Assembly: GCA_002839855.1 (NCBI GenBank)
Contig: PGYV01000002.1
Coordinates: 90,574-154,573, forward strand
DNA length: 64,000 nucleotides
DNA from: Candidatus Goldiibacteriota bacterium HGW-Goldbacteria-1
GTDB lineage: Bacteria > Oederibacteriota > PGYV01
Direction: 5' to 3'
Shown here: positions 7,769-36,381 of the stretch, one piece after another
Numbering within the stretch: the stretch's first letter is position 1
How the letters are laid out: each line of letters opens with the position of its first letter
The notes under the pieces: model-generated
Database searches by the model: none
What the model was told of the DNA's origin: nothing
The model's input: only the letters and a program-made list of their open reading frames with translations
Position numbers and translations under genes: made by a program

Positions 7769-9808
7769 GTGGCAGAAGTAATATACCGTATAAATTTAAA
7801 GATAAGCATAATAATATTATTATTTATATTTATTGCGCCTTTTACCTCCCTTAATGCCGGCAGTTTTGGCACAAGTACTGCTGAATTCCTTAAGATAAAA
7901 CCAGAAGCTGTTCAGGCGGGAATGGGCGAGGCGGGCACCGCTCTTCCGGACGGCACAAATGCCCTTATTTTTAACCCTGCAAATCTTGCGCTTTTGGATA
8001 AAGCGGAATTAACTCCCACCGGAATTTTCTGGTTTAATAATATCAACATGCAGCACATTGCTTTTGGCGTGCCGTTTGAAAAAGGCTCCGGTTTTGGTGT
8101 AAGCCTGCTTTATATTGATTACGGTTCTTATGACTCTACCGGCGGTACGTCGCCTTCTGTTTCCCTGAAAAATGCCGTCTTAACAGCCGGTTTTGGAAAA
8201 AGTTTTGGAAACACTTTCAGTTTTGGCGTGCAGTCAAGGGGGCTTTACGAAGATTTTATGGGCGATGTCAGCATGGGTGTGTCTTTTGACACGGGGATTT
8301 CGTTAAGCCTTTTAGAAAATAATATTTATGCGGCATTAACCGTAAAAAATCTGGGATTCTTATCCGGAACAAATGACATGTTTCCTGTGGAATTCGGCGC
8401 GGGCTTGGGTTTCAGGGTATATGAAGGTTCTTTTGATGTTTTCAGCGCCGCGATAGATTTTTCCAAGGCCGCGGGCGCGGATAATATTTTTGCCGGAGCC
8501 GGAATTGAATATTTTTTATTCCGCGCGGTGGCGCTTAGGCTTGGCGCAAAATATAGTAATGCAATGGACCTTGGCAAAATGTCTTTTTCTGACGTGACAA
8601 AACTTACGTCCTTAACCGGCGGGCTGGGGATTCACGTGGGCGATTTTGGGCTTGATTACGCCTTTACGCCAATGGGTGACCTTGGCGCGGTGCACAGGAT
8701 ATCCGCAACCATTAAATTCGGCGCGTCAATGTATGAACAGCAGCTGGCGGAAAAAAACGCGGAATTTGTGCCGAAAGCTATTGAAGTGCCAAAGGTGAAC
8801 GTGGAAAACGGAAGAATAAAATCAGTTTCTTTTAAGCCCAATGTCCCTGAAGAAAAAGTAAAGGAATGGAGCCTTGATATCAAGACGTCTGACGGCAAAA
8901 TTGTAAAGTCTTTTTCCGGCATGGGCGAAGTGCCAAAGGATTTAAGCTGGGACGGCACGGATAACGTGGGTAAAATAGCGGGCGCAAACACAAATTATAT
9001 CTTTGATTTTAAAGCTAAAGACTACACCGGGCAGATTATAAAAACGGTGGGGCAGATTATTCAGCCCAAAAAATATGAATTTGAAGTTCCGGTGGACAAA
9101 CCGTTTGTCCCGCTTAAAAACCGCGAAATGCTTGTAGCCCCGATAACACTGCTTGTGTCAAGTGACAGTGACGAAAGAAAAACAGTGCCTTTTGTCATGG
9201 TTAACAGGGAGATTAAGAAAATTAAAGACTGGAATTTTCAGATATTTGATTCAAAGGATATGCTGTTAAAAGAGTTTTCCGGCGGGGAAACACTGCCTTC
9301 GTACCTTGTGTGGGACGGCCTTGATTCCGCGGGCAAATACGTGGACGACCTTAAAGGGTGCAGATACGTGCTTAACGTAAACGGCGTTAACGGCAAAAAA
9401 GCGGTTATAAAAGACAGGCAGGTTATACGCGACCCGTTTATTATCACGGCAAAGAGCAAAAAACTTAAACTTGGAAAGAAGATATATTTTGACCAGAACT
9501 CTTCCGTTATAATGCCGGAAATGGCTGACAGGTTAAATCAACTGGCTGCCGAAATTGAAGGGCAGAAAAATGTCCAGGTTTATATACAGGGGCATTCCAG
9601 CGAGGAAGGCGATTCCGCGCAGAATTTATACCTGTCCCAGGAAAGGGCAAAAACAGTATTGCGGTATTTTGTGGAAAAATATAAAATGTCGCCGCTTTCA
9701 ATTACCACGGTGGGTTATGGCGCCAAAGTGCCGCTTAATAAAAACCGCACAGACACGGAAAGAAGAATTAACAGAAGGGTGGAAATAATCATAATGGGTG
9801 AAAAATAA
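7769..9808 (+). CDS. PorV/PorQ-like outer-membrane barrel fused to FlgD-like Ig domains and an OmpA domain
   Basis: A 679-residue exported protein. GTG start with AGGGG at 7757-7762; hydrophobic signal segment at residues 12-30. Residues ~33-310 match the PorV/PorQ/UPF0164 barrel style, with QAGMGEAGTALPDGTNALIF then NPANLALL. Two FlgD-type Ig repeats follow (~345-435 and ~460-560, each with a WDG motif). Residues ~565-679 are an OmpA-family peptidoglycan-binding domain with LSQERAKTV, VGYG and INRRVEI. The Asp usual in the GHTD motif is replaced (GHSSEEG). It is first in an operon and its TAA overlaps the next ATG (TAATG). It probably anchors an outer-membrane complex to peptidoglycan. Confidence 0.85.
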   Translation: MAEVIYRINLKISIIILLFIFIAPFTSLNAGSFGTSTAEFLKIKPEAVQAGMGEAGTALPDGTNALIFNPANLALLDKAELTPTGIFWFNNINMQHIAFGVPFEKGSGFGVSLLYIDYGSYDSTGGTSPSVSLKNAVLTAGFGKSFGNTFSFGVQSRGLYEDFMGDVSMGVSFDTGISLSLLENNIYAALTVKNLGFLSGTNDMFPVEFGAGLGFRVYEGSFDVFSAAIDFSKAAGADNIFAGAGIEYFLFRAVALRLGAKYSNAMDLGKMSFSDVTKLTSLTGGLGIHVGDFGLDYAFTPMGDLGAVHRISATIKFGASMYEQQLAEKNAEFVPKAIEVPKVNVENGRIKSVSFKPNVPEEKVKEWSLDIKTSDGKIVKSFSGMGEVPKDLSWDGTDNVGKIAGANTNYIFDFKAKDYTGQIIKTVGQIIQPKKYEFEVPVDKPFVPLKNREMLVAPITLLVSSDSDERKTVPFVMVNREIKKIKDWNFQIFDSKDMLLKEFSGGETLPSYLVWDGLDSAGKYVDDLKGCRYVLNVNGVNGKKAVIKDRQVIRDPFIITAKSKKLKLGKKIYFDQNSSVIMPEMADRLNQLAAEIEGQKNVQVYIQGHSSEEGDSAQNLYLSQERAKTVLRYFVEKYKMSPLSITTVGYGAKVPLNKNRTDTERRINRRVEIIIMGEK

Positions 9809-15284: not shown

Positions 15285-16475
15285 ATGGTTAAATTTGACC
15301 TTAAAACAGGCGCTTTTTGGGCTTTGTGCGGGTATGCGGCGGTGTCTGCTGTGTCCATCACAATGGCGGAGATATTCTATATTTTGTCGCTGGTTTTGTG
15401 GATTGTCCTGTTTGTAAAGCAGAAGGATGAAACTGCTTTTAACATAAGCAAATTCATCCTTATCCCTTTTTCCGCTTTCATATTCATCCACTTTATTGCG
15501 GCAGTTTTTGGTGTTGACCCTTTAAACAGTATAAAAGACTTCAAAAAGGTCTATATAATGGGCGCGGTTTTTCTTGCTGCTTATATCTCCCGCAGCTCTT
15601 TGAATAAAGAGATGCTTATGCGGTTTTTTGCGGCAGGGGCGATATTTGTCGGCGGGTACGCTTTTTCCACCGGCATCTACCACAGGTTAATAATGCACGA
15701 AGCGGATTTTAGGGCTGTCTCTTTTTCCGGCAACCACATGCACGCGGGCGGAATGCTTGCTATGGCATGTGTGGTGCTGGCGGGGTTTATGGTGGCGGAA
15801 TTAAAGTCGTTAAGCGTTAAACGGTTGAACGTTCTTTTATACTCGCTTGGTTCTTTTTTCGCGGGGCTTGGGCTGGTCTTCACATTTACCAGGGGTTCCT
15901 GGCTGGCGGCTTTATGTGGAATGCTTATTATTTTTTTTATGGCCGGAAAGAAATACTTTGTGATTTTTCTTGTGATTATAGCAGCCGCGGGTTTTGCCCT
16001 TAAAGACACGGCAGTTGGCAAAAGGGCAATGAGTTCGTTTAATACAAACAAAGGCACTTCAAATATTGAAAGGGCTTATATGTGGGAAAGCGGTATTAAA
16101 ATGATAAAAGATAAACCGTGGCTTGGCATAGGCACCGCAAATGTCGGGAAAATATATCCGCAGTACATAAATCCGGAAGCGCGGGAGAGGCAGCAGGGGC
16201 ACCTTCATAATACCGCGATTCAGATTGCCGTAATAGACGGGCTTTTGGGGCTGGCGGCATTAATATGGCTTTTTGTATCGCTTTTAATCACGCAGATACG
16301 CGGCGCGCTGTCAGCTAACGGTTATGACAAACACGCGCTTTTTGCTTTTTTTGCCGTAACAGTTGTATTTGTGATAAACGGCCTCTTTGAATATAACCTG
16401 TTTTCATCGCAGGTGGCTTTAATGTTCTGGTTTCTTACGGGAATTTCTTTACGGCCAAGAATTCATGGCCAATAA
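15285..16475 (+). CDS. O-antigen ligase family protein (Wzy_C/WaaL type)
   Basis: A 396-residue inner-membrane protein with about ten membrane helices; AAGGAG precedes its ATG. The periplasmic loop with FTRGSWLAALCG (about residues 203-214) and the later WESGIKMIKDKPWLGIGTANV ... HLHNTAIQIAV block are the Wzy_C signature of enzymes that join polyprenyl-linked glycans to lipid A core or polymerise them. The conserved Arg of FTRGSW and His of HLHN are present. The heptosyltransferase gene 9 nt downstream supports an LPS role. WaaL and Wzy polymerases cannot be separated by eye. Confidence 0.82.
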   Translation: MVKFDLKTGAFWALCGYAAVSAVSITMAEIFYILSLVLWIVLFVKQKDETAFNISKFILIPFSAFIFIHFIAAVFGVDPLNSIKDFKKVYIMGAVFLAAYISRSSLNKEMLMRFFAAGAIFVGGYAFSTGIYHRLIMHEADFRAVSFSGNHMHAGGMLAMACVVLAGFMVAELKSLSVKRLNVLLYSLGSFFAGLGLVFTFTRGSWLAALCGMLIIFFMAGKKYFVIFLVIIAAAGFALKDTAVGKRAMSSFNTNKGTSNIERAYMWESGIKMIKDKPWLGIGTANVGKIYPQYINPEARERQQGHLHNTAIQIAVIDGLLGLAALIWLFVSLLITQIRGALSANGYDKHALFAFFAVTVVFVINGLFEYNLFSSQVALMFWFLTGISLRPRIHGQ

Positions 16476-16483
16476 GGAGCAAC

Positions 16484-17545
16484 GTGGTTAAAGTTGAGTT
16501 GTCTAAAATAAAAAGGGTTTTAATAATAAGGCCCGGCGCCATAGGCGATGTGCTTTTAACCACGCCTTTTATACGCGCGCTTAAAAAAGCTCTGCCCGAA
16601 GCGGTGATAGATTACGTGGCCGCGCCTTTTCCGGCCAAGATACTTGAAGGGAATCCGTACCTTTCAAATGTGATAGTGTTTGACAAGAGTAAAAAAACAA
16701 ATTTTATTGTTAAAAATATTAATGATTTAAATTTTTATTTATCGCTTGCCAAAAACAAATACGACCTTGTTTTTGATCTGTTCGGCAATCTGCGCTCCGC
16801 GCTTATGGCTTTTTTAAGCGGCGCGCGGTACAGGGCGGGTTTCACTTTCAGGGTAAGAAAGTATTTGTATAATATCAAAGTAAAGCCGGCGCAGGACCCG
16901 ATGTATAACGTTCATTACCACACGCAGTTATTAACGGCAATAGGCATTCCCGAAGACGGCGAAGAACTTGATTTTATAATTCCGGAAGCGGAAAAGGCAA
17001 AAGCGACGCGGTTAATAAACACAGTTAAAACCGGCGGCCCGGTTATAGGGCTTAACCCGTCCGGCACATGGCCCACAAAACGCTGGCCGGAAGAGAAGTT
17101 TGGCGAATTGGCGGGGCTTATTCTAAGCGGCATAAAGGGAAGTTCTGTAATTGTGCTGTGGGGCCCCGGCGAACAGCACATGGCTGAAAAAGTATTGAAG
17201 AATTGCCCGGTAAAACAGGGTATAATAATTGCGCCGCAGACATCGCTTAAGGAACTTGCGGCTTTAATAGGGCAGATGGATGTGCTGGTTACAAACGACG
17301 GTGCGCCCAAACATATCAGCGTGGCTATGAAGACGCCGGCGGTTACGATATTCGGGCCCACAAACAGTATTTCGTGGAATCCGCATAATAACCCGTATTA
17401 TCCCGCGGTGGTAAGCGCGCTTGCCTGCGCGCCGTGCGATAAAACGCAGTGCCCTGACAAAGATATTGAGTGCATGAAAAAGATAAGCGCGGCGGATGTT
17501 TTTGAAACGGTAAAAAATACTGCGGCATTAAAAAGCCGCGTTTAA
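16484..17545 (+). CDS. Glycosyltransferase family 9 (ADP-heptose:LPS heptosyltransferase-like)
   Basis: A 353-residue cytoplasmic GT-B enzyme that adds heptose or a related sugar to the LPS inner core. It starts at GTG 16484 with AAGGAG upstream. The N-terminal IKRVLIIRPGAIGDVLLTTP (residues 7-26) is the family-9 signature. The C-terminal half has GLNPSGTWPTKRWPEEKF (~185-202) and VTNDGAPKHISVAMKTPAVTIFG (~266-288), which form the donor site. A C-terminal cysteine cluster, CAPCDKTQCPDKDIECM, is typical of many members. It is cotranscribed with the ligase. Confidence 0.9.
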   Translation: MVKVELSKIKRVLIIRPGAIGDVLLTTPFIRALKKALPEAVIDYVAAPFPAKILEGNPYLSNVIVFDKSKKTNFIVKNINDLNFYLSLAKNKYDLVFDLFGNLRSALMAFLSGARYRAGFTFRVRKYLYNIKVKPAQDPMYNVHYHTQLLTAIGIPEDGEELDFIIPEAEKAKATRLINTVKTGGPVIGLNPSGTWPTKRWPEEKFGELAGLILSGIKGSSVIVLWGPGEQHMAEKVLKNCPVKQGIIIAPQTSLKELAALIGQMDVLVTNDGAPKHISVAMKTPAVTIFGPTNSISWNPHNNPYYPAVVSALACAPCDKTQCPDKDIECMKKISAADVFETVKNTAALKSRV

Positions 17546-17559
17546 TCAAGGAGGATGGC

Positions 17560-18219
17560 ATGGCTGAAATTGACATAGACAAGATGCTGGAACAAAGGGA
17601 ACAGGCGGGAAAAACCGGAAAGAAAAAAAGCGGCGTTAATATGAATGTTATATACGGCGCAGCGGCAGCGGTTGTGCTTGGTGTAATTGCTTTTATTGTT
17701 GTCACAATGATGAAACCAAACGCGGGGCTTTATTTTCCCGTGGAAAATACCGGTTTATCACTGTTTAATATTTCCGGTAAGAGCCCGGAGCGCTGGGAGT
17801 TTCTTGATAAAAAAGAAGTTATAAACGGAGAAACTTTCGCGATACTAAACAGGACAGACACGGGAAATAATTATACAGTGCAGGAATATTATTCATACGG
17901 AAAAACCGGAGTTATAAAAGCGTATATTTCTGAAAACTTTGGCGATAAAAAACCTTATGGTATGATAATGCTTCCGCCAAAGGTAAAAAAAGGCGCTAAG
18001 TTTAAAGCGGCTGATACCGCCGCCGGCCCGATTATGGGATCGGTAAACGAACCGGAGCTGATTTTAACAACGGCCGGGGAAATGGAAGCGGTAAGGGTGG
18101 ATTATAAAGGCGGCAGGGCGACTGATAAAAGTATATGGTATGCCCAAGGCCAGGGCGTAATAAAGACGGCTGACAGGTATAAAAATGAAACCATGGATAT
18201 TATAAGCATAACAAAATAG
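17560..18219 (+). CDS. Single-pass membrane protein of unknown function
   Basis: A 219-residue protein with GGAGG 5 nt before its ATG. Residues 1-28 are cytoplasmic and charged (MAEIDIDKMLEQREQAGK). One membrane helix (~29-51, VIYGAAAAVVLGVIAFIVVTM) is followed by a ~165-residue beta-rich extracytoplasmic domain (LYFPVENTGLSLFNISG, GGRATDKSIWYAQGQGVIKT). The middle resembles LolA/outer-membrane-sensor-like beta folds, but I recognise no family. It sits between the LPS genes and the SprA-like gene, 14 nt after the former, so an envelope role is likely. Confidence 0.65.
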   Translation: MAEIDIDKMLEQREQAGKTGKKKSGVNMNVIYGAAAAVVLGVIAFIVVTMMKPNAGLYFPVENTGLSLFNISGKSPERWEFLDKKEVINGETFAILNRTDTGNNYTVQEYYSYGKTGVIKAYISENFGDKKPYGMIMLPPKVKKGAKFKAADTAAGPIMGSVNEPELILTTAGEMEAVRVDYKGGRATDKSIWYAQGQGVIKTADRYKNETMDIISITK

Positions 18220-18227
18220 AGGGTGCA

Positions 18228-18281
18228 ATGATTTTAAAAACGTTAACACAGCATTCAAACAACAGGGTGAACAGGCCGTGA
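18228..18281 (+). CDS. 17-codon leader reading frame coupled to the SprA-like gene
   Basis: ATG at 18228 with GAGGG 5 nt upstream reads 17 codons (MILKTLTQHSNNRVNRP) and stops at TGA 18279-18281. That stop overlaps the GTG start of the large downstream gene (GTGA). The downstream GTG has only a poor ribosome-binding site of its own, so reinitiation from this leader is a plausible way to set its translation. It may instead be chance; no homologue is recognised. Confidence 0.35.
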   Translation: MILKTLTQHSNNRVNRP

Positions 18282-21200
18282 TTCGGCGCGCGATTAAATT
18301 ATTTCTAAGCGTGCTGATTTTTTCCGCGGTTTTTGCCGCTGCGGAATTATCAGCGGCAGAGCCGTCGATAGCAGAAGAGCCGGCCGCCTCAGGGGTTACG
18401 TCTGTCAACCGCTCGCCTTTTAATTTAAGGGCCAAGACTGACGGCATAAGGGTTATTTTGTCATGGGACGCTGATACCGCAGACGGTGTGACATACGAAG
18501 TTTACCGCGCGTCCGGGCCGGATGAAGACTATATTACAATTACAAAAGAGCCGTTAAAAGAACTCATATACATTGATTCGGCGGATTCAAGCGTAATTCC
18601 GCCGGAGAGCAATGTCACGTATTATTACAAAGTCGGCGCGGTTTTTAACGGCGCAAACCTTGGCGATTCAAATGTGGCTACCGCAAAACCGGTCGGCGTG
18701 CTTGAAGCGCCGCGCCAGATAGAAGCGTCTGCGGGTTTTTCTTCGGTAACGCTAAACTGGGTACAGCCGGATTCCACAGGGCCTTTTGAACTGTCCGGAT
18801 ATAACATTTACCGTTCCTTTAACAGGGAAGAACAGGGAATGCGGATTAACCCTGAAATCCTGAAAGTTACCACTTATGAAGATACAGGCCTTTCTGAAGG
18901 GACAGAATATTTTTACAGGGTGCAGACTGTTGATTTAAGGGGCGGCATGGTAATGTCACTTCCTGTATCCGCTATACCATATTCGCGTTTGGGCGGGCCC
19001 GCTGATGTCACGGTAAAAGCCGTATCTCAGGAAAGCATAAGGCTGTCCTGGCTGGAACCATTGGTAACAGGGGCTGCCGGAATACAGGGTTATAATATTT
19101 TTAGAAGCAATAATGCATCCTCTTTTTCGGAACAGCCGCTTAACATAGGCATTGTAAAACCGTATAAAGATGAAGCGGGCAGGTCTTTTTATTACGATAA
19201 CATAATATTAAGCCGCGACCCGCCTGTCCCGGGAGTGGAATATTTTTATAAGATAGTGCCTGTTGACGCTTATGGCAATTCCGGCACCGCAAGTGTGCCT
19301 GTGTCAACAAAAATAGAATGGGTAAGCGTGCCGCAGACGGGTATTCTTTCCGCTGATATTTCCCAGTACGGGCTGCCGCCGGAATCCAAGCTTGAAATCC
19401 GGGGGATGAAGTCTGTTAAGATTGGTTACACGGGTGTAATGCCGGATGATGCCATAGTGACAGGCGATAAAAAAGGTATTGATTTCACGCAGGCGTTCAG
19501 AGTAAGGTTAAACGGCAACATAGGCAGGAAGATACTTGTGGATGTGGATTATGATGACCAGAATCCCACAAGTGAATACACAAAAATTTCCATACAGTAT
19601 CAGGGCGAGAAAGAAGAGACAATTCAGGAAGCTTCTTTCGGCGATATAACATTATCGTTGCCGCCCACGCGCTACGCCAGCTATTCGCAGACGCTTTTTG
19701 GAATAAAAGGAAGGGCTGTGCTTGGCGATAAGTTTTCTGTGACCGCTTTTGGCGCGCAGGCAAAAGGTATTTCTGCCGTGCAGGAATTTACCGGAAATTT
19801 AAGGCAGAAAGAAGTAAACGGAAAAGAAGGTTACACGATACTTGACAACCAGTATCAGAAAAACATCTACTATTACCTGTCAAAAGACCCGGCGCACGTA
19901 AGCGCGCTTGCGCCCAACGCCGGGCTGCCCGTTCCTGCCGTGCCGGTTTCCATAAAGCCGGGTTCTGTTTTAATTTATTATGACGACGGGATAGCCAGCA
20001 ATGACATTCCCGCCGAAGTTATTTATTCCGTCCCCAACAGGACTTTTCATTTCAGGCCGCTTTTAATAGGTTCGGATTATGTTATTGACTATAAGAACGG
20101 CGTTGTGAAATTTAACATCGGCATACCTGATACAAGCACCATGGCTGTGGCTTTTGAAACAAGCGACGGGCAAAGGGTGGGGTATTCTTCGGACGGCAGT
20201 TTTAATTTTAACGAAACCGGGCTTACATCCGCCAGCACCGGTTACACGTCCGACAGCGCGCATCTTATACAGGATGGGCGGCAGAATACAACAGGCGATT
20301 TATCCCATAAAGTGCTTAACTATTATTACCTTGGCGAAACGCAGATAGAAAACCCGGCCAATGACGGGTATTTTTACATAGAGATAAGAAAAAAATCGCA
20401 GGAAAGCATTAATATTCCGCAGCCCAATAACAATGATTCTTCAAGGTATTATGAAATTGACACGGATATGGGGCTTTTAAAATTTAAGGCGTTCTTTCCG
20501 TTTGCTTCAAATTATTCAACACCGGCAGACCCGGGCAATAATGTAAGGCCTTCTAACTTAACGGAAGACGCGTACAGCTTAAGCGCGAATAAGTCCCTTT
20601 ATGAAATTTATCTTAAATATAATTACAGGGTATCTTCTTACAGGCTTGATAATTCGCCCGTGGTGTACGGCAGCGAAAGGGTTCAGATTGACGGGCGCGA
20701 CCTTTTAAAGGATAAAGACTATAATATTTTTTATGAGACCGGTGAAATAATTTTTATAGATAAAAATCTTGTGCAGCCAAGTTCCAGGATAAAAATTGCG
20801 TATGAATATTTTCCGTTCTTTCAGAGTTTTCAAAGCACGGTTGTGGGTGCAAGGATAGATTATAAGCTGTTTGATAATTTAAACCTGGGCAGTACGTGGC
20901 TGTGGAAATTTTCCAGCGCCGGGACAACAGTCCCTGACGCGCGTTCAACGGACACAAGGCTTTCAACGCCTGCCAGTATGTACATGCTTGACGGAGACAT
21001 AAAACTTACGCTGGATAAAAAACAGATTAACGAAGTTATAAACGGCGTGCCGTTTGTGGACGGGGCGGATTTACCGGTGGATTTCAGCTTTCAGGGTGAA
21101 GTGGCGTACAGCGATTTTAACCCTAACCTTTTTGAAAATGTCAGGACAAAGGAAAAAGGCGCAGCCATGATTGATAATATGGAAGGCGCAGATAATGTGT

Positions 21201-24200
21201 TATCGCTTTCCACGAACAGGTATTCATGGTTTCCGGCAAGCATACCGGCGGGAGTGGTGCCTGAAAACAGGGTGCTTACAGGAAAAGAAAATGTCACTGA
21301 AAACGGGCATCAGATAGTCACCGAAGGCACGCTGGGTTCTTCGGCACAGGTGATGCTGCGTTTAAATTACAGCGGGCTTACGCAGGACAGATGGGACGCG
21401 TACAGGTATGTGGTATCCGCTTTCGGGGAAAATCTTAATAATTTAAATTATATGGAAATGTGGGTTTATGTGGATACGGACAATCCGGTAAAGCTTAAAG
21501 TGGATGTGGGTATAATAAGCGAAGACAGCAACGGCAATAATACTTTTCAGCTGAATTCCACGTCCGGTGTAAGGCGGGACAGTGAAGACGCGGAAAATAA
21601 CGGCAAATTAAAAGCCGTTTATGATATAGGCATAGGCAGGGGTATTTATCCGGAAAATCCGGACTACTGGGGCGCGGGCAATGATGTCCTTGACACTGAA
21701 GATATGGACAATGACGGGCAGATGGACACTTCAGAGTCATATTATGAATTCAGTTCGGACGGCCCCAATTATTACCATCCGCAGCTGACACTGTCCCAGA
21801 AGGGCTGGCATCTGGTAAAGATACCCCTTTCTCAGTTTTCACAGTCTTTTGGGCTTAATTCTGACCAGCGCAATCCAAGCAGTACGGCATTTTTCTCCAT
21901 AATCAAACACGTAAGGGTAAGCATAAAAGGCGCCGGCGCGTCGCCAAGCGCGGGGCATATTAAAATTGAATCCATTAACTTTCTGGGAAATTCGTGGAGG
22001 TTAAAGACCTTAACCGGCGCTACAGACATGGTGGGTAATATTATAAATTCGCCGAATACCGCAAAGATGAACGTGGAAACGGTAAATCAGAATACCGATG
22101 AAGCGTATACGCCTAACGTGGATTATTTTGATTACCAGAAGGACGAAGATAAAAAATCCGAAGAGGCGCTTAAAATTTCCTATAAACTTTCCGCTTATGA
22201 CCAGAGGCCTTCGGACGGTCAGCCAATATATTACACCACCAAATTTTTAAGCGAGTCCACGGGGTATGACTACCAGCAGTATAAAAAAATAAAGATGGAC
22301 CTTTTATTTTCCAGAAAAAGCGGGGATGCGGGCGCGGGAAGGGTTATGTTTGTACGCCTGGGAACCGCTGCGCCGCCGCCCGGTGTGGACGAGACAAATT
22401 ATTACCAGTACAACCTTCAGATGGATTCTGTACCGGCGGACGGGGGCTGGCATACGGTGGAATTTGAAATTGACGGGTCCGATAAAAAACGCAGCGGCGC
22501 CGTGGGTTCTCCGAATTTAAGAAAAGTGCAGTACATTACTCTGGGTTTCATAAATCCGAATAACACCGTAACTGACGACGTCATATATGTAAATAACATA
22601 AGGCTTGTGGATCCGATTTCAAAAGTGGGTATGGCAAGGTATACCAATTCAGCCCTTAATATGGCGGGTTTTGGAAACCTGACGCATACATACGAAGAAC
22701 TTGATTCCGGATTCAACACAATCCTTGATATGGACAGGGCAAAATATCTGCAGCATTCAAGGGACAACAGGGTAAGGTTTGACTACACACAGATAAAAGA
22801 GGTGCCTGTCTCTGCGGAGATTGCAAAAACCGAGAGGTACACCGAAGATCAGTACAGAAATGACCCCACGTACACCAACAGTTTTTCAACGCCTGACACC
22901 GTGGTGGACAGTTTCAGAAATGACATATCGCTGATGTCGGTGCCCGGACTTACGCTTTCCAATGCTATTACCTTAAGAAATATGAAGTTCAATTATTTTC
23001 AGCTTTATGAATATCAGAATAATCTAAGTGAGGTGTTCACAGTAAGGCCTTACGCGCGCTATATGATTCCCACAGAGATAAAAGTGGGAGACCTGTTTAC
23101 CATACCGCTTGGGACAAACACTCTTGAAAGCAGCATGCTTGTAACAAACACCAAAACCGATTACGCGGATTATTTCGGCGTGACAATGAACACGCAGGCG
23201 ACATATTATGATCAGTGGAACTTAAAAAGGGAACAGGACCACGACTATAAGGGGAGTTTTACGGTAGATAAGCTATCCATTAACCCGTCATATAATTATA
23301 AACTTGGCGAAGAAAAAGGAAACCTTTTAAGCCGGTTTAATTATTATTATGATTCAATAGGCGATAAAAATTATACCGATAAATACCTTGTGACAAAGCG
23401 GGAAATAACACCAAAGATTAATATCAGCGCCCAGGAGATAGGTATAGTTTCACCTTCCATTGACTACACTTCAGGATACCGCTATGAGTATACGTCAAAC
23501 CTGCTTTATACAAACGCCTCGCTGTCGGCGCGTGCGCGCGTGGCAATCAGTAAAATTATACCGGTGCTTCCGGATATCACGAATATTTCCGCGGGGGTAT
23601 CGGATAGCAACAGGCGTTATGACAACAATTATTACCCGGGTTCTTTTAAGGCGTTTGATGAACTGCCGTTTGAGAAAAAATGGTATGTTTTTATATGGGA
23701 GTACTTTTACGACGAAAAATCTGTGGAAAGGCTTGAAGCGCTGTCTTATGGAGGCGCCATGTCGCGCGATTATACCCTTGACCTGGCGGAAATTAAATTT
23801 TTTGACAGGCTAAGGATAGCTATCGGCGCAAATTACAGTATTAGGCGCGATTCGCAGACCAGGACTTTAACGGGGATAAACGATTCTTTAAGGCTGTCGG
23901 CGCGTGAAATTTATTTTGATAAGGTTACTCTGCCGGGGCTGGAATTTTTAGTAAAGGACCAGACTGTATCCGGGTCTTATAATTACACGGTTACAAATAC
24001 ATATAACCCGCTTGACAGAAAAGAACTTATAAGGGGAACTAAAGGGCATGATGCCAGTTTTAATCTGCCATATAAGACAGAAGGGGATAACCCTATAAAC
24101 GGATCTTTAAGGTTAACTTACAGCAGGTCTGATTCAAAAGAGAAATATATTGAAAATTACCTTTGGACTCTGCGGCCGGAATTAAGCCTTAATTACGCGC

Positions 24201-24517
24201 TTAATATTACACAGCCGTTTACAATACCGGGCTGGATACCGTTTCTGGGTAATAAAATAATAAAACTTGATAACAGTATAAATCTAAGAAGCGTGCTGGC
24301 GTATTCGGTTATGCAGGGCGACGGCAGGGGCGATAATAATTTAAGCAAGAAAGACATTAAAGAACTGACTGCTGATCTGGGTTTTTCTTACAATATCCTC
24401 AGCAATATACGCACCAATGTCAACCTGCGCTACAGGCAGAAAGACGATTCGCAGGGGCAGGCAAGGGACAGTTTTAAATCTTTTGGCGGCACGCTTGAGT
24501 TTATAGCGGAATTTTAG
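18278..24517 (+). CDS. SprA-like giant outer-membrane translocon protein with N-terminal FN3 domains
   Basis: 2079 residues. Signal segment ~5-27 (LFLSVLIFSAVFAAA). Three fibronectin III domains cover ~44-345. From ~350 on it follows SprA (Sov), the T9SS outer-membrane channel. Matching features are FRVRLNGNIGRKILVDVDYD (~406-425); YQGEKEETIQEASFGDITLS, then SQTLFGIKGRAVLGDKFSVT (~445-485); MIDNMEGADN followed by W-x-PASIP (~962-989), like the DDFEGS...W-x-LAS motif of SprA; and a HVRVSIKG ... NSWRLKT block (~1215-1242). The rest is beta-strand-rich and ends EFIAEF, with the C-terminal Phe typical of barrels inserted by BamA. SprA proteins are usually ~2300-2500 residues. The GTG start overlaps a short leader frame. 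It lies in an LPS-to-mutL gene run. Confidence 0.8.
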   Translation: MIRRAIKLFLSVLIFSAVFAAAELSAAEPSIAEEPAASGVTSVNRSPFNLRAKTDGIRVILSWDADTADGVTYEVYRASGPDEDYITITKEPLKELIYIDSADSSVIPPESNVTYYYKVGAVFNGANLGDSNVATAKPVGVLEAPRQIEASAGFSSVTLNWVQPDSTGPFELSGYNIYRSFNREEQGMRINPEILKVTTYEDTGLSEGTEYFYRVQTVDLRGGMVMSLPVSAIPYSRLGGPADVTVKAVSQESIRLSWLEPLVTGAAGIQGYNIFRSNNASSFSEQPLNIGIVKPYKDEAGRSFYYDNIILSRDPPVPGVEYFYKIVPVDAYGNSGTASVPVSTKIEWVSVPQTGILSADISQYGLPPESKLEIRGMKSVKIGYTGVMPDDAIVTGDKKGIDFTQAFRVRLNGNIGRKILVDVDYDDQNPTSEYTKISIQYQGEKEETIQEASFGDITLSLPPTRYASYSQTLFGIKGRAVLGDKFSVTAFGAQAKGISAVQEFTGNLRQKEVNGKEGYTILDNQYQKNIYYYLSKDPAHVSALAPNAGLPVPAVPVSIKPGSVLIYYDDGIASNDIPAEVIYSVPNRTFHFRPLLIGSDYVIDYKNGVVKFNIGIPDTSTMAVAFETSDGQRVGYSSDGSFNFNETGLTSASTGYTSDSAHLIQDGRQNTTGDLSHKVLNYYYLGETQIENPANDGYFYIEIRKKSQESINIPQPNNNDSSRYYEIDTDMGLLKFKAFFPFASNYSTPADPGNNVRPSNLTEDAYSLSANKSLYEIYLKYNYRVSSYRLDNSPVVYGSERVQIDGRDLLKDKDYNIFYETGEIIFIDKNLVQPSSRIKIAYEYFPFFQSFQSTVVGARIDYKLFDNLNLGSTWLWKFSSAGTTVPDARSTDTRLSTPASMYMLDGDIKLTLDKKQINEVINGVPFVDGADLPVDFSFQGEVAYSDFNPNLFENVRTKEKGAAMIDNMEGADNVLSLSTNRYSWFPASIPAGVVPENRVLTGKENVTENGHQIVTEGTLGSSAQVMLRLNYSGLTQDRWDAYRYVVSAFGENLNNLNYMEMWVYVDTDNPVKLKVDVGIISEDSNGNNTFQLNSTSGVRRDSEDAENNGKLKAVYDIGIGRGIYPENPDYWGAGNDVLDTEDMDNDGQMDTSESYYEFSSDGPNYYHPQLTLSQKGWHLVKIPLSQFSQSFGLNSDQRNPSSTAFFSIIKHVRVSIKGAGASPSAGHIKIESINFLGNSWRLKTLTGATDMVGNIINSPNTAKMNVETVNQNTDEAYTPNVDYFDYQKDEDKKSEEALKISYKLSAYDQRPSDGQPIYYTTKFLSESTGYDYQQYKKIKMDLLFSRKSGDAGAGRVMFVRLGTAAPPPGVDETNYYQYNLQMDSVPADGGWHTVEFEIDGSDKKRSGAVGSPNLRKVQYITLGFINPNNTVTDDVIYVNNIRLVDPISKVGMARYTNSALNMAGFGNLTHTYEELDSGFNTILDMDRAKYLQHSRDNRVRFDYTQIKEVPVSAEIAKTERYTEDQYRNDPTYTNSFSTPDTVVDSFRNDISLMSVPGLTLSNAITLRNMKFNYFQLYEYQNNLSEVFTVRPYARYMIPTEIKVGDLFTIPLGTNTLESSMLVTNTKTDYADYFGVTMNTQATYYDQWNLKREQDHDYKGSFTVDKLSINPSYNYKLGEEKGNLLSRFNYYYDSIGDKNYTDKYLVTKREITPKINISAQEIGIVSPSIDYTSGYRYEYTSNLLYTNASLSARARVAISKIIPVLPDITNISAGVSDSNRRYDNNYYPGSFKAFDELPFEKKWYVFIWEYFYDEKSVERLEALSYGGAMSRDYTLDLAEIKFFDRLRIAIGANYSIRRDSQTRTLTGINDSLRLSAREIYFDKVTLPGLEFLVKDQTVSGSYNYTVTNTYNPLDRKELIRGTKGHDASFNLPYKTEGDNPINGSLRLTYSRSDSKEKYIENYLWTLRPELSLNYALNITQPFTIPGWIPFLGNKIIKLDNSINLRSVLAYSVMQGDGRGDNNLSKKDIKELTADLGFSYNILSNIRTNVNLRYRQKDDSQGQARDSFKSFGGTLEFIAEF

Positions 24518-24548: not shown

Positions 24549-27500
24549 ATGAAAAAATTATTTTTAACAGCACTTTTAATGCTTCTATCCGGTTTTGCCA
24601 TGGCTGCGCCATATGCGGTAACCGGGCTGTCGGTATATAATTGCGGCGGCATAAAACTTGTATGGGACGCGCCGTCTGACACTTCGACTGCTGTATCTTA
24701 TGTCATAAACAGGTCTGTGATAAGCGCAGGGCCGTTTGACCTTACCGTTACCGCTTCTGTTAATAATTACTATGACGCATCAGCTGATACCACGCTGGCG
24801 TATTATTATACGGTTAAGTCGGTGGATTTTACCGGCGCTACAGGCGCTGCGTCAGCGGCAAAAAGCACTTTGCCGGCTTCGCCTGAAAACCTGCAGGCAG
24901 TACCTTATAATGCAAAAAACATGCTATCCTGGCAGCCGTCTTCGGACGGTGCGGTTGAGTCATATAACATTTACAGAAGCAGCGGATATGGTTTTAAGAT
25001 ACTTAATAATACTTATAGTACAGAGTACACTGATGAAAGCGCTGCAAACGGCACCCTTTACTGGTACAGGGTGGCATCGTTAAAAACAAATCAGGAAGGT
25101 GCCTGCGCGTGTTCTGCTTCGGCAAAGCCATATATTCCTCCTTTTCCTGTAAGCGCAGTTGATGCTTTTGTGGAAGCGGGGGAGCTTACCGCCGCCTGGA
25201 CAATGTCCGCTCTGCAGGGGACTTACGAAATAGACAGTTTCAAAATATTCAGGTCAACTTCTTATGGGGATGAAAGTTTTTCTCCGGCTTCTGTTACGTA
25301 CACTTCTTACAGCGAAACCCTGCCGCTTGCCGGGCAGTTATATTATTACGCGGTGCGCACCATTGACACACAGGGAAATTCCTCGCCGGCGTATTGGTTT
25401 TCCGCATATAATCCAGGATTGCCGTCGGTACCTTTGGGGCTTACTGTCACGGCGGCAAATGCGGCGCGGATAAATATTTCCTGGCAGGCAAATCCGGCAG
25501 CTGAAGATATTACCGCGTATCAGGTAATAAGAAACTCCGCAATAATTGCCACAAAAGCCACCCCAACCGCCGCTTCATACGAAGACATGGATGTGGTTTT
25601 AGGAAATACATATTCATATTATATTCAGGCAATAAATTCTTTCGGCACAGGGGATGGCTCATCTGCGGTGACACAGACGGTTATACCCGCGCCACCGGCA
25701 GGTCTTACTGCAACCACAGGTGTGCTGCCCGGAACTGTTTATCTTAACTGGGCTGATAATAATGCTGAAGAAAATATTCAGACATATAATATTTACAGGG
25801 CCACGTCCGCGGTGACATTTAATTATACAACCCCGTATTTAAGTACGGGAACAGCCGGCGTTACAGACGCAGCCGTTGTAACGGGGACGCCATATTTTTA
25901 CAGTGTATCAGCGGTGACCGAAACTGCGTATGAGTCTTTTTCTGAAATAGTCTCTGCAATGGCTGTGACTTACGCGGCGCAGCCGGAAAATCTGACAGCA
26001 ACCGCTTACAGCAATTATGCCGAACTTTCGTGGGATAATCCCGGCGCGTCATACGCGATTGCTTCATTTAAAATATATAAAAGCACAGATGGTTCTGTTT
26101 TTAATTATCTGGCATCAGTTTCGCCCCCGCAGTTTAATGACGCAGGGCTTACAAACGGCAGTACCTATTATTACCGCGTGTCTGCTGTAAATATTTATGG
26201 CGAAAGCACCCACTCCGAGCATGTGACCATTACCCCGCAGGCGGGGTATTTTACGGAACCAAAAAACCTGACTGCAACGGCAGAAGCGGGGGACGGCAGA
26301 ATAATACTTTCATGGTCCGCGGTTCAATCGCAGGAAATTACAGGGTATAAAATATATAGAAGCACGGTGTCAGGGTCTTATGACACTGTGCCTTACGCGA
26401 CGGCTGTTACAATCACCGCATATACAGACAGCGCGGCCGCCACGCTTACCACTTATTATTATAAAGTCAGCGGCTATGGGGTGTCAGAAACCGCAAAGTC
26501 AGCTGAAGTTTCAGCAGCACCGTTTATCAGGCCGGGTCCGGCTTTAAATCTTACGCTTACAAGCCTGTATGACAGGGTATATCTTACATGGGATTCACCG
26601 GCAAATGATTATACATACAAAACAACTGTGAAATATAATATTTACAGAAGCACTTCGTCGCTTTCTTACAGCCAAAGCGCGTTTACCGCGCTTGCATCGG
26701 AATATACGGGGGCAAGTTATATTGACGCGCAGATAAATACGGCGGGAACTTATTACTATAAGATAAAAGTTATTGACGACATGGGAAATGAAGATACATC
26801 CACAACGGGCGTGCAGATAGTGTTAAGCGGGGTTATGGAACCGCCTGCGGTTTTAAAAGGCGTGGCTTCCAACAAACAGGTAAGGCTTGTCTGGTCATCG
26901 ATAAATCCGGATTCTTACAGTGTGTACAGAAAAACAACACAGACGGCGGCTGAATTTGGTGCGCCTATTGCCTATAATCTGGGTTTTGACGTAAAAGAGT
27001 ACGTGGACAGTAATGTGGAAAATAACATCACTTACATTTACGCGGTGGCCGCGGTAAATGATTCCGGTGAAGGCCCCAAGTCCAATCCGGTTTATGTCAC
27101 GCCGTACCTTGCTTCGGGGCTTCCGGCGGACGCTTCGGTAAAATTTGAAATAGAAAATAAAAAAGACGTAAGGTTATGGTGGAATCCCGCGTCTGACGGA
27201 ACATATCAGGTTGCGGGTTACAGCGTTTTCAGAAGCAATGACAACGGTTATTCTTATGTGCATTTAAGTGTAACTGCCGCTTCTGTTGTGGAATACACCG
27301 ATACAGCAACGGAATGGGATAATAATTATCTTTATATGGTACGTGTGGTGGATTCAGGCGGGAATACAGACGCCACATACACGCCTGTTAAAGTGGAACT
27401 GCCGCTTCCGAAAAATAAAATAAGGGTGTTTTCCAACCTTGTGGATTTAAGCAAAGGGGAAAAACTAAGATTAAAATACCTGCTTGTAAAGAGCGGCAAA

Positions 27501-27719
27501 CTTAAATTTTATATCACCACTTTAAGCGGAGTGCATGTGCGGACGCTTATTGAAAGTACATCAGAACAGGGAATAACTAAAAATCTGCCATTTGAAAGCG
27601 GTGACATTTTCTGGGACGGCACAAATCAGTCCGGTAAGAAAGTGGCATCCGGCGCTTATCTTATTGTGCTTGAAATGGACGGCGTAAGGGTAATAGAAAA
27701 AGCAGCTGTAGTTAAATAA
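24549..27719 (+). CDS. FN3-repeat surface protein with C-terminal FlgD-Ig/sorting-like domain
   Basis: 1056 residues. Signal peptide 1-20 (LLMLLSGFAMAAPY). About ten fibronectin III domains (~20-952) recur every ~90-95 residues with W-D/S, Y-x-IYRS and T-Y-Y-Y-V motifs. The final ~100 residues (954-1056, RVFSNLVDLSKGEKLRLKY ... FWDGTNQSGKKVASGAYLIV) match FlgD-Ig domains that serve as C-terminal signals in many T9SS-type cargo proteins. It starts 31 nt after the SprA-like gene, which suggests it is a client or partner of that channel. Likely on the cell surface; ligand unknown. Confidence 0.75.
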   Translation: MKKLFLTALLMLLSGFAMAAPYAVTGLSVYNCGGIKLVWDAPSDTSTAVSYVINRSVISAGPFDLTVTASVNNYYDASADTTLAYYYTVKSVDFTGATGAASAAKSTLPASPENLQAVPYNAKNMLSWQPSSDGAVESYNIYRSSGYGFKILNNTYSTEYTDESAANGTLYWYRVASLKTNQEGACACSASAKPYIPPFPVSAVDAFVEAGELTAAWTMSALQGTYEIDSFKIFRSTSYGDESFSPASVTYTSYSETLPLAGQLYYYAVRTIDTQGNSSPAYWFSAYNPGLPSVPLGLTVTAANAARINISWQANPAAEDITAYQVIRNSAIIATKATPTAASYEDMDVVLGNTYSYYIQAINSFGTGDGSSAVTQTVIPAPPAGLTATTGVLPGTVYLNWADNNAEENIQTYNIYRATSAVTFNYTTPYLSTGTAGVTDAAVVTGTPYFYSVSAVTETAYESFSEIVSAMAVTYAAQPENLTATAYSNYAELSWDNPGASYAIASFKIYKSTDGSVFNYLASVSPPQFNDAGLTNGSTYYYRVSAVNIYGESTHSEHVTITPQAGYFTEPKNLTATAEAGDGRIILSWSAVQSQEITGYKIYRSTVSGSYDTVPYATAVTITAYTDSAAATLTTYYYKVSGYGVSETAKSAEVSAAPFIRPGPALNLTLTSLYDRVYLTWDSPANDYTYKTTVKYNIYRSTSSLSYSQSAFTALASEYTGASYIDAQINTAGTYYYKIKVIDDMGNEDTSTTGVQIVLSGVMEPPAVLKGVASNKQVRLVWSSINPDSYSVYRKTTQTAAEFGAPIAYNLGFDVKEYVDSNVENNITYIYAVAAVNDSGEGPKSNPVYVTPYLASGLPADASVKFEIENKKDVRLWWNPASDGTYQVAGYSVFRSNDNGYSYVHLSVTAASVVEYTDTATEWDNNYLYMVRVVDSGGNTDATYTPVKVELPLPKNKIRVFSNLVDLSKGEKLRLKYLLVKSGKLKFYITTLSGVHVRTLIESTSEQGITKNLPFESGDIFWDGTNQSGKKVASGAYLIVLEMDGVRVIEKAAVVK

Positions 27720-32579: not shown

Positions 32580-34721
32580 GTGCGCATAAAAAGTGTAATT
32601 CTGTCCATTTTTGCAGTTATTATTTTATTTGCAGCGGTTCCGTTTGTGTCTGCGGACGATTTTACCGATACGCTGCAGATTACCTGGGAGAAAGTTAAAG
32701 AACCGTTTTTTGATAAATACAATCCTTTTGGAACAGGTGCAAGGGCAATAGGGATGGGAGAGGCTTTTTCAGCTATTGCTGACGACTCTTCCACGGTATA
32801 TTACAATCCTGCCGGCCTTGCGCAGATGGATCATAATGAAATTTTCTGGACAGGCGGAAGTTATTATGGCGGTGTCCCTTATACCGGATTTGCGTCTTTC
32901 ACAATGGCGCTGGGAGGGCAGTATTTCGGCCTTTCGTATGAAAAACTTTATCATCCAATAGGCAGGTATCCGGAGAAAGTCGTTATACCGGTACGCATTG
33001 GCAATGCAGGTGTTCCTCCTCCAACTCCTCTTTTTTATACAGAAAATATTGACATAACTGTTGGTACTTATGACTGGTTTGGCGGCGCAGGAATGGGCGG
33101 GCTTGACCCTTCGTGGCAGGAATTTTTAGGCGATAAATACAGGAAGTACATAAACCTTCCTTTTCAGACAAATAGCGTGCTTTTAACATATGCCACTCCT
33201 TTAACCTCGGACAAAAGTTTTAACTTTGGCGTAAACGTTAAATATATGTTTACTGATGCTGATGCTAAAAAAATTATTACTGATGAATTTGACGCATGGT
33301 CATGGGGGCTGGATGTGGGCTTCCTTTACAAGCTGCGCCTTATTGAATTCTTAAAAGACCTTAATATTTCAATTATGTTAAGGGATGTTTCGGGACAGAT
33401 GAAGAGGTACAAGACCGGAATAGAAAAAAACTTATTTTTTACTTCAACCATCGGGCTTTCAATGCGCACAACGCAGCTTATAGAAAAAGAAGTCACAAGT
33501 TTTTCCGTTGATTTTAATTCTGTAAATGACCCGGGCGTTTTAGAGCAGGAAAGATACAGGTTTAATTTTGGAGCGGAGCAGTGGTTTATAGACGGCCATT
33601 TTGCGGTAAGGGGCGGCCTTGTGGATGTTATGTATCCCGGCACGTGGAGGGCGTCTTTGGGCTTGTCAGCCAAGTATATTTTTGGAATTGATTACGCATA
33701 TGTATTTGGAGTTCCGCTTGGACAGGATGCTGAAAACGAAAGCGATTCGCACTGGATATCGCTGCACTGGGAATGGGGTAAAGTTGTAAGAAAGCTTCCC
33801 ACACCGGATGTTTTTGCCGCGGTAGAACCAATTTCTTTTGCTCCTAAAAACGGAGAAACTGTAATTTTCAAGCTTAACGCGGATTCAAAAGCGGGAATAG
33901 ACAGGTGGGCGCTTAACATACTTGATAAAAACAATAACCTTGTTAAATCTTATGTGGATATAGGCGCTCCGCCTTCGCAGATTATATGGAATGGCACGGA
34001 TAACAAATATCAGCCCCTGTCTGACGGGGAATACACTTTTATATTTGAAGCCACGGACAAACTTGGAAGCACGGCTTCCACTCCGGTGCAGACTGTAAAG
34101 CTGTTCACTCCGGTGCTTGAAGCTGTAAATAAAGAAGCACTGAATAAATTAAAAATTCTTTTAAAACAGATCGGCGACAGAGACCTTGCGGAAGACAACG
34201 CTCAGATGGCAAACGCGAAAGCGGGCGTGGAAGAGTGGAAGGCAATAAAAGGCAAACCGACACCGGTTCCTCCTCCTCCCGCAGGCACAATACCGGAGCC
34301 GCTTCCTTTAACGGCGTTCCCGGGTTTTGAAAACTATCAGGGCGCAACGCCAAGTGCGGCAGCTGGCAATGTTAATGTGGCGGGTTTCCCGAATGTGGAT
34401 TCATCCGCAATCAGGTCCGCTTACATCGCAACCGATGCTGACGGCAATAAACAGTTTATGATGGAATATGCAACGGCAAACACCATACCGCAGTATGTAA
34501 TGAAAGAAGTGGCAATGATGGCCAGAAGCATAGCTGAAAGCATGGGCGGTTCCATCAGTAACATAGGTATTAATGCTTTATATGGCGGCAGCAATACGAT
34601 GGCGGTCAACGTGCCTATTGCACAGGCTCAGAACTATTCAAGAGGATACATTTCCGCGGAACAGATGCTTCGCGGTGCAAATATTACGCTGAACGGCGAG
34701 ATAATAAATCCTAATTATTAA
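32580..34721 (+). CDS. PorV/PorQ-family outer-membrane protein with FlgD-like Ig domain
   Basis: 713 residues from a GTG. Signal peptide 1-25 (AAVPFVSADD). Residues ~40-400 are the PorV barrel, opening with GARAIGMGEAFSAIADDSST then YYNPAGLAQM (~48-77), the PorV/PorQ signature. A FlgD-type Ig domain follows (~415-512, IIWNGTDNKYQPLSDGEY). Then come a charged region, a Pro-rich linker (KPTPVPPPPAGTIPEPLP, ~560-577) and a ~130-residue C-terminal domain found nowhere else in this window. In T9SS, PorV carries cargo from the SprA channel to the surface attachment complex. It is the first gene of a run into flgF-flgJ. Confidence 0.8.
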   Translation: MRIKSVILSIFAVIILFAAVPFVSADDFTDTLQITWEKVKEPFFDKYNPFGTGARAIGMGEAFSAIADDSSTVYYNPAGLAQMDHNEIFWTGGSYYGGVPYTGFASFTMALGGQYFGLSYEKLYHPIGRYPEKVVIPVRIGNAGVPPPTPLFYTENIDITVGTYDWFGGAGMGGLDPSWQEFLGDKYRKYINLPFQTNSVLLTYATPLTSDKSFNFGVNVKYMFTDADAKKIITDEFDAWSWGLDVGFLYKLRLIEFLKDLNISIMLRDVSGQMKRYKTGIEKNLFFTSTIGLSMRTTQLIEKEVTSFSVDFNSVNDPGVLEQERYRFNFGAEQWFIDGHFAVRGGLVDVMYPGTWRASLGLSAKYIFGIDYAYVFGVPLGQDAENESDSHWISLHWEWGKVVRKLPTPDVFAAVEPISFAPKNGETVIFKLNADSKAGIDRWALNILDKNNNLVKSYVDIGAPPSQIIWNGTDNKYQPLSDGEYTFIFEATDKLGSTASTPVQTVKLFTPVLEAVNKEALNKLKILLKQIGDRDLAEDNAQMANAKAGVEEWKAIKGKPTPVPPPPAGTIPEPLPLTAFPGFENYQGATPSAAAGNVNVAGFPNVDSSAIRSAYIATDADGNKQFMMEYATANTIPQYVMKEVAMMARSIAESMGGSISNIGINALYGGSNTMAVNVPIAQAQNYSRGYISAEQMLRGANITLNGEIINPNY

Positions 34722-34734
34722 AAGAGAGGGGAAC

Positions 34735-36381
34735 ATGAAAAAAATAATAACAGCGGTTATACTTTCACTGGCACTGGCGCAGTTTGCGTTTGCCGGAGCT
34801 TTTGATAAAGGCGGCGTGCTTGGCGTTGGCGGCAGGGCGCTTGGAATGGGCCATGCTTTTGGCGCGGTTGCCGATGACGGAAGCGCCGTATACTGGAACA
34901 CGGCGGGTTTAACGCAGCTTGAAAGGGCGGAAGTTAACCTTTTTCTTGGGCCGTTGTTAAACGGAAAGGAATATTACACATTTCTTTCTTTTGGTTCGCC
35001 TTTCTTTCAGGACACAGCGTGGCAGCTGTCCGTGCTTTCCCTTATACATAACGACAAAAATAACACAAAAGAATTTACCGTAATCGGCAGTTTTGCGTCC
35101 GCGCTTAACCTTGAAAGGACTTTTTCGGTGGGCGTAAACGTTAAGTACTTAAATTATAATTCCACCGCTTCTTATACAACATCATCCGGCACCACGCTTC
35201 AGGGAATTGCAAACGGGCTTGGGCTTGATCTTGGCGTGCTTTATCAAATGCCTCTTCCTCAGTTTGGAAAAAAAATCAACCTTGGGCTTTTCATACAGGA
35301 TATTGAGACCACGCTGCACTGGCAGGGCGGTACCACAGAAGAAAAAATACCCACCATTTTTAAGATTGCAAGCGCATATTATATAGATGACAACCTTTTA
35401 ATGACAGCTGACCTTGATTTTTTTAATGACCTTAATATAAGCGGAATTCCGCTTCAGGAACCAATTTATGATATCAGCGGAAACACTATTACGGCGCTTA
35501 AACCGGATCCATACAGGTTACATGTGGGTGTGGAAGGCTGGTTCTTTAAAAGGCACCTTGGACTGCGCGGCGGATATACGGGTTTTGCCACAATGCAGGG
35601 CAGGCTTACAGGCGGCGTAACTTACAGGGAAGATATATGGGAAGTTGACTACGCATATATAGGGCACGCGGAACACCTTGGGGACTCACACAGATTCTCT
35701 GTTATTTTAAGGTTCGGCACAGAAAGGGAAAAACTTACCGCCATAAGCGTGGTAAGGCCTCCTAAGAATCTGAATTCATATCCGGCAAACGGCGCAATAA
35801 ACCTGACGTGGGAGCCAAACGAAGAGCCCAATGTCACGGGTTACGCCATTTACATGAGCAAATCACCGGGCGCAAGGTATATTCCGGTGGCAAAAAGAAT
35901 AAAAGAAAATTATGTGACAATTGACGGCTTAAAGAACGGCACAAGGTATTACTTTGTTGTGGCTTCAATTAATAATACATATCCATCGGTTGAAAGCGCG
36001 TACAGCAATGAAGCTTCAGCGGTACCGGCACCTGTGGTTCCGGGCACGCCTGAAATGTTCCCTGTAGCGCAGAAAAAAGAAGTAAGAAAGAATGGCGCTG
36101 TTGATGTAAAGTGGGGCAAAATGCCTCCTGCAAATATGGCGGGATACAATATTTATATAACGGAATCATCGGGCAAGGGATATGTTAAGGTTAACCCGTC
36201 GCCTGTAAATGATACTCATTTTGTGGTAAAAGGGCTGGAAGTTGGCAAAAAATACTTCTTTGTAATAACATCGGTTACAAATGATGTTCCGCCTATAGAA
36301 TCCAAGTTCAGCAAGGAATGGGCGGATGTGGCAAAACCTGAAGGAAGCATGACAGAGAACGCGGCCGCAGGCCAGAGGTAA
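34735..36381 (+). CDS. PorV/PorQ-family outer-membrane protein with two FN3 domains
   Basis: 548 residues. Signal peptide 1-20 (ALAQFAFAGAF). The PorV barrel covers ~25-335, with GGRALGMGHAFGAVADDGSA then YWNTAGLTQL (~30-59). Two fibronectin III domains follow (~341-433 and ~434-540), each with the GYAIYMSKS / GYNIYITESS strand. GAGAGGG precedes the ATG. It starts 13 nt after the previous PorV gene and ends 13 nt before flgF, so all three are probably on one message. Function within the family is unproven. Confidence 0.8.
   Translation: MKKIITAVILSLALAQFAFAGAFDKGGVLGVGGRALGMGHAFGAVADDGSAVYWNTAGLTQLERAEVNLFLGPLLNGKEYYTFLSFGSPFFQDTAWQLSVLSLIHNDKNNTKEFTVIGSFASALNLERTFSVGVNVKYLNYNSTASYTTSSGTTLQGIANGLGLDLGVLYQMPLPQFGKKINLGLFIQDIETTLHWQGGTTEEKIPTIFKIASAYYIDDNLLMTADLDFFNDLNISGIPLQEPIYDISGNTITALKPDPYRLHVGVEGWFFKRHLGLRGGYTGFATMQGRLTGGVTYREDIWEVDYAYIGHAEHLGDSHRFSVILRFGTEREKLTAISVVRPPKNLNSYPANGAINLTWEPNEEPNVTGYAIYMSKSPGARYIPVAKRIKENYVTIDGLKNGTRYYFVVASINNTYPSVESAYSNEASAVPAPVVPGTPEMFPVAQKKEVRKNGAVDVKWGKMPPANMAGYNIYITESSGKGYVKVNPSPVNDTHFVVKGLEVGKKYFFVITSVTNDVPPIESKFSKEWADVAKPEGSMTENAAAGQR

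Follow-up and report, generated by a model that had tools for sequence, protein, structure and literature searches.

The type IX secretion system (T9SS) has been placed in the Bacteroidota, possibly also in other FCB phyla, and is stated to be absent elsewhere (PMC11285876). In the Bacteroidota, a single PorV handles every type A cargo protein, and a dedicated SprF-like shuttle gene downstream of the cargo gene is confined to type B cargo (PMC12618676). P. gingivalis makes the barrel PorP and the peptidoglycan-binding PorE as two distinct proteins (PMC9143113). None of the papers searched links the T9SS to Goldbacteria, FCPU426 or Firestonebacteria.

The window described here, namely the whole stretch of 64,000 nucleotides that was analyzed, originates from a Candidatus Goldiibacteriota bacterium and encodes a homologue of the T9SS translocon SprA. 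The features referred to below are the following (coordinates within the window).

3620..6382, + strand: protein of 920 aa whose C-terminus is CTD-like (26 bits by the CTD model of its own genome)
7769..9808, + strand: barrel of the PorV/PorQ family, fused in one chain with a FlgD-like Ig domain and a peptidoglycan-binding OmpA domain
15285..16475, + strand: O-antigen ligase (Wzy_C) family protein, in the same gene string as sprA
16484..17545, + strand: LPS heptosyltransferase family protein, in the same gene string as sprA
17560..18219, + strand: 219-aa protein upstream of sprA, apparently with a single TM helix at the N-terminus, and with a domain predicted to be periplasmic
18278..24517, + strand: sprA, encoding a 2079-aa homologue of the T9SS outer-membrane translocon, with a GTG start codon, a signal peptide and a terminal Phe
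18419..19312, + strand: about three N-terminal fibronectin III (fn3) repeats of SprA (aa ~48-138, ~144-231 and ~240-345; Pfam and family profile), putatively periplasmic
19361..24514, + strand: SprA core (aa 362-2079) with barrel strands, cap and periplasmic insertions, aligned to F. johnsoniae SprA 131-2401 in two overlapping models
24549..27719, + strand: secreted protein of 1056 aa, rich in fn3 domains and CTD-like at its C-terminus; its gene lies 31 bp beyond sprA
32580..34721, + strand: PorV/PorQ-family protein with a FlgD-like domain, below the family cut-off
34735..36381, + strand: barrel of the PorV/PorQ family, extended at the C-terminus by two fn3 domains

The Goldbacterial components share with the Bacteroidota T9SS (SprA/Sov-PorV; F. 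johnsoniae, P. gingivalis) a SprA homologue of matching fold, carriers of the PorV family and cargo with type A C-terminal domains (CTDs). They differ in that GldK, GldL, GldM and GldN were not detected by profile searches and PorU peptidase was found in 4 of 44 genomes, in the presence of many PorV-family carriers instead of one, and in the fn3 domains added to the SprA N-terminus. As in the type B cargo/SprF (PorP-like) pairs of F. johnsoniae, a barrel shuttle gene of its own directly follows the cargo gene (PMC12618676), but here the cargo carries a type A tail (TIGR04183) and its shuttle is a member of the PorV/PorQ family. The association of a carrier barrel with a peptidoglycan-binding protein is shared with the cell-wall-anchored PorP-PorE-PG1035 complex of P. 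gingivalis (PMC9143113), whereas Goldbacteria combine barrel and OmpA domain in one polypeptide, as in 7769-9808 of the window. These components are best read as a SprA-PorV export system in which carriers are paired with cargo and neither an energy chain nor a sortase is recognizable, SprA itself having descended vertically in the Goldiibacteriota/FCPU426/Firestonebacteria phylum. A probability of roughly 0.7 is assigned to this reading.

Identity and predicted structure of SprA

The 2079-residue open reading frame, whose N-terminus is signal-peptide-like, had been singled out in the first-pass annotation as a divergent SprA displaying a series of motifs in order and a terminal Phe. All of the quoted motifs, LNGNIGRKILVDVDYD, YQGEKEETIQEASFGDITLS, SQTLFGIKGRAVLG, DNMEGA ... 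WFPASIP and WRL, were located in the 18278-24517 protein. Across 21 SprA sequences from the phylum, many of their residues are invariant or nearly so, and Phe is the last residue in every case. The equivalog model TIGR04189 (surface_SprA; NCBIfam Sov/SprA) gives the window protein a score of 205.9 bits for a cut-off of 200, single stretches taken alone remaining below this cut-off. The motif set is therefore not a product of chance. A profile of 21 relatives compared to the PDB retrieved F. johnsoniae SprA (6h3i) with an E-value of 9.2e-54 in three stretches. Parabacteroides distasonis SprA, an outside reference whose gene was taken from plasmid records, was aligned using hhalign with a probability of 100 over 1027 columns and about 22% identity. 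With the Pfam profile SprA_N, an E-value of 0.001 was not reached by the window protein and was reached by three of the 21 relatives. The sequence match to known SprA ends around profile column 1460-1490 and the C-terminal barrel was therefore assessed by structure.

The core was folded with AlphaFold as two overlapping pieces, using 25-row alignments from named relatives. The mean pLDDT is 73.4 for the model of residues 352-1545 and 81.6 for that of residues 885-2079. The first four Foldseek matches of both models are the SprA structures 8gl6, 8gl8, 6h3i and 6h3j, with best E-values of 1.4e-50 and 1.1e-36, respectively. Upon superposition with VIA-align, the 352-1545 model matches SprA 131-1634 over 730 residues (Z 18.6, rmsd 5.9). 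The 885-2079 model matches SprA 787-2401 over 1032 residues (Z 17.0, rmsd 10.0), a Z-score nearly equaled by some unrelated barrels but over far fewer residues. In the latter model, the C-terminal 540 residues form about 20 long consecutive strands. The window SprA is thus predicted to adopt the SprA fold, a very large single-chain barrel with its cap. This expected fold is seen in both overlapping models; a single closed barrel of 36 strands, also expected, is not, since the protein was folded in two pieces. On the evidence of TIGR04189, of the 6h3i profile match and of the Foldseek ranking, the SprA-like nature of the protein is confirmed, as is its divergence. That it is orthologous to SprA/Sov, the T9SS translocon formed in the outer membrane by one giant chain, is close to certain. 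Both checks suggested in the first-pass annotation, a SprA profile search and a fold prediction, thus came out in favor of SprA.

Three fn3 domains had been annotated ahead of the core. Two repeats are strongly matched by Pfam, and three consecutive blocks align to solved fn3 domains when the SprA family profile is used, in agreement with that count. The associated proposal of a different surface architecture is wrong or unproven. In F. johnsoniae, SprA extends its N-terminus into the periplasm and is bound there by SkpA and SprE (PMC10994853). As the fn3 block precedes the first barrel strands, and by analogy with the F. johnsoniae protein, a surface location was dropped and the block is most likely periplasmic. 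It might perhaps substitute for the SkpA/SprE partners. Only 12 of the 21 SprA proteins of the phylum reach an E-value of 0.001 for fn3, and the region ahead of the core spans 160-183 residues in Firestonebacteria versus 361 in the window protein. The block is therefore not essential and most likely represents a clade-variable addition to SprA.

Cargo proteins and PorV-family carriers

Type A CTDs were searched using TIGR04183, a profile that also matches one control outside the Bacteroidota (Deinobacterium chartae). The source genome displays 30 such places, 27 of them over the cut-off, and six relatives display 11-78 each. PorV_fam is over its cut-off in all 44 genomes, with 7-44 matches per genome and 31 matches, corresponding to about 29 genes, in the source genome. 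This family is a broad FadL-like subfamily, the window copies score far below the PorV equivalog cut-off, and some copies may do other things. Many of the carriers are extended at the C-terminus by TPR, fn3, FlgD-like (FlgD_ig) or OmpA domains.

Eight strict pairs, in which a PorV match follows a CTD on the same strand at a distance of 128-161 bases, were found in the source genome, compared to 0.06 expected under uniform placement; neither reversed pairs nor pairs on opposite strands were observed. A CTD model specific to this genome was then built from six cargo proteins lying outside the eight strict pairs. With this model, 13 of the 29 PorV genes are immediately preceded by a CTD protein scoring 27-68 bits, the majority of these genes having no CTD gene directly ahead of them, and only two of the 55 ORFs of the window score above 6 bits. 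At least 13 pairs were also found among the matches listed in genomes G016, G030, G044 and G008, for an expectation below 0.1. Many cargo genes therefore have a PorV-family carrier gene of their own directly downstream. The pairing is strong statistically, and the gene pairs suggest that these barrels function as dedicated carriers. From such one-cargo-one-carrier pairs, the carrier that holds a given surface enzyme can be predicted, a matter of relevance since Goldbacteria include cellulose degraders (PMC7031533).

No conserved cluster of machine components surrounds the best general PorV of the source genome (L174:6990-13391), which lies just downstream of the F-ATPase operon; this order is common to the source genome and several relatives. 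In the window, the two PorV-family genes at 32580-36381 immediately precede flgF, flgG, flgA and other genes of the flagellum.

Energy chain and proposed route of export

Profile searches for the Gld proteins covered 44 genomes, 25 of them near-complete, with matches listed down to about 20 bits. GldM and GldN were matched in none of the 44 genomes. Both searches were hence run without a positive control, and the absence of these two proteins remains unproven because their profiles matched no genome at all. GldL gave two weak matches, rejected as a chemotaxis receptor (MCP) and a coiled-coil-like ORF. GldK matched FGE-type domains only, in 14 genomes and never over the cut-off, as well as in B. 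subtilis, and these matches were rejected as generic FGE-sulfatase domains. The C25 peptidase of PorU was not found in the source genome nor in 40 of the 44 genomes. It is clear in the four others, which indicates that the C25 search works. Among the PorU-related proteins of these four genomes (L111, L112, L113 and L114), one or more carry a type A CTD. Judged from profiles devoid of a positive control, the known energy chain (GldK/L/M/N) is likely to be missing from the genomes searched.

The most serious alternative is a conventional T9SS with all of its parts, in which GldK/L/M/N are too diverged for profiles to recognize. SprA itself obtains only about 206 bits over the 2319 positions of TIGR04189, or approximately 0.09 bits per position, so that other parts could be very diverged as well, and the failure of the GldM and GldN profiles to match anywhere is compatible with this possibility. 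At a divergence similar to that of SprA, however, GldM and GldK are estimated to score about 35-45 bits, within the listed range. Four independent profiles failed across a set of genomes in which PorV, by contrast, was found at an E-value of 1e-60. A hidden conventional system is therefore considered less likely, and a SprA-PorV system devoid of a recognizable energy chain is preferred.

The operation of this SprA-PorV system can be outlined as follows. The cargo would reach the periplasm by Sec and, from the homology to known systems, its type A CTD would insert into the SprA pore, where a PorV-family carrier bound to the lateral gate would capture it. The cargo would exit via this gate bound to the carrier. 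As many cargo genes are directly followed by a carrier gene of their own, the carrier probably stays as a surface anchor. Its retention would remove the need for a PorU sortase, which fits the lack of the peptidase in most genomes. The OmpA, TPR, fn3 or FlgD-like tails, presumably located on the periplasmic side, would tie the carriers to the cell wall or to other partners. Ejection of the carrier could be powered by a motor that is either unrelated or extremely diverged, or could draw its energy from the folding of cargo and the binding of carrier on the outside of the cell. The full proposal, in which export runs without the proton-driven GldLM motor and the GldKN track and each cargo passes to a PorV-family carrier of its own, kept as a cell-wall-linked anchor, is tentative and given somewhat less than even odds. 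If true, translocon and carriers can operate apart from the gliding-derived energy chain that has been proposed as the origin of the T9SS.

Neighborhood and distribution of sprA

In the window, sprA belongs to a gene string composed of O-antigen ligase, heptosyltransferase, the 219-aa protein, sprA, the 1056-aa fn3 protein, mutL and miaA. Its position after two genes of surface polysaccharide families, along with the broad FadL-like nature of PorV_fam, would be in line with SprA and the PorV barrels serving another purpose, such as surface polysaccharide/LPS export or outer-membrane assembly, the CTD link being secondary. The neighbors of sprA differ in other families, however, the gene immediately following sprA codes for a CTD-like protein, and the dozens of CTD proteins per genome and their ordered pairing with PorV genes argue in the same direction. 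Such a different purpose is accordingly held to be improbable, in favor of the export of CTD cargo by SprA and PorV.

The 219-aa protein has no match to any family. Relatives belonging to the order have a gene of like size ahead of sprA, and both flanking genes, upstream and downstream, are of the same size throughout the order. A large fn3/FlgD-like gene recurs downstream of sprA in families f7, f15 and f16, homology being hard to judge in the presence of fn3 repeats.

The first-pass annotation had also placed the window outside the Bacteroidota, and this assignment stands. In the alignment of relatives, the source genome groups with Goldiibacteriota/FCPU426/Firestonebacteria, the aligned sequences being labeled Candidatus Goldiibacteriota, candidate division FCPU426 or Candidatus Firestonebacteria, with a few MAGs labeled otherwise. 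SprA is present in 40 of the 45 genomes of the phylum and in 24 of the 25 good ones. In the SprA tree, families are monophyletic and match the genome families, and SprA is therefore old in the phylum. The description of the T9SS mainly from Bacteroidota and the FCB group might suggest a recent horizontal gain of sprA from Bacteroidota, or the contamination of one assembly, an explanation already contradicted by the spread over the phylum and the congruent families, opposed as well by the low identity to Bacteroidota SprA and the gene order kept around sprA within the order, and hardly credible as a result.

Two further arrangements were noted upstream of sprA. An MCP-like gene separates the ~220-aa gene from sprA in three families belonging to the same order (L045:16192-17823, L046:4743-6389 and L048:12389-14008); it is absent from this position in the window. 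In one family, a LytTR response regulator, possibly regulating sprA, is encoded directly upstream (L062:12169-12918).
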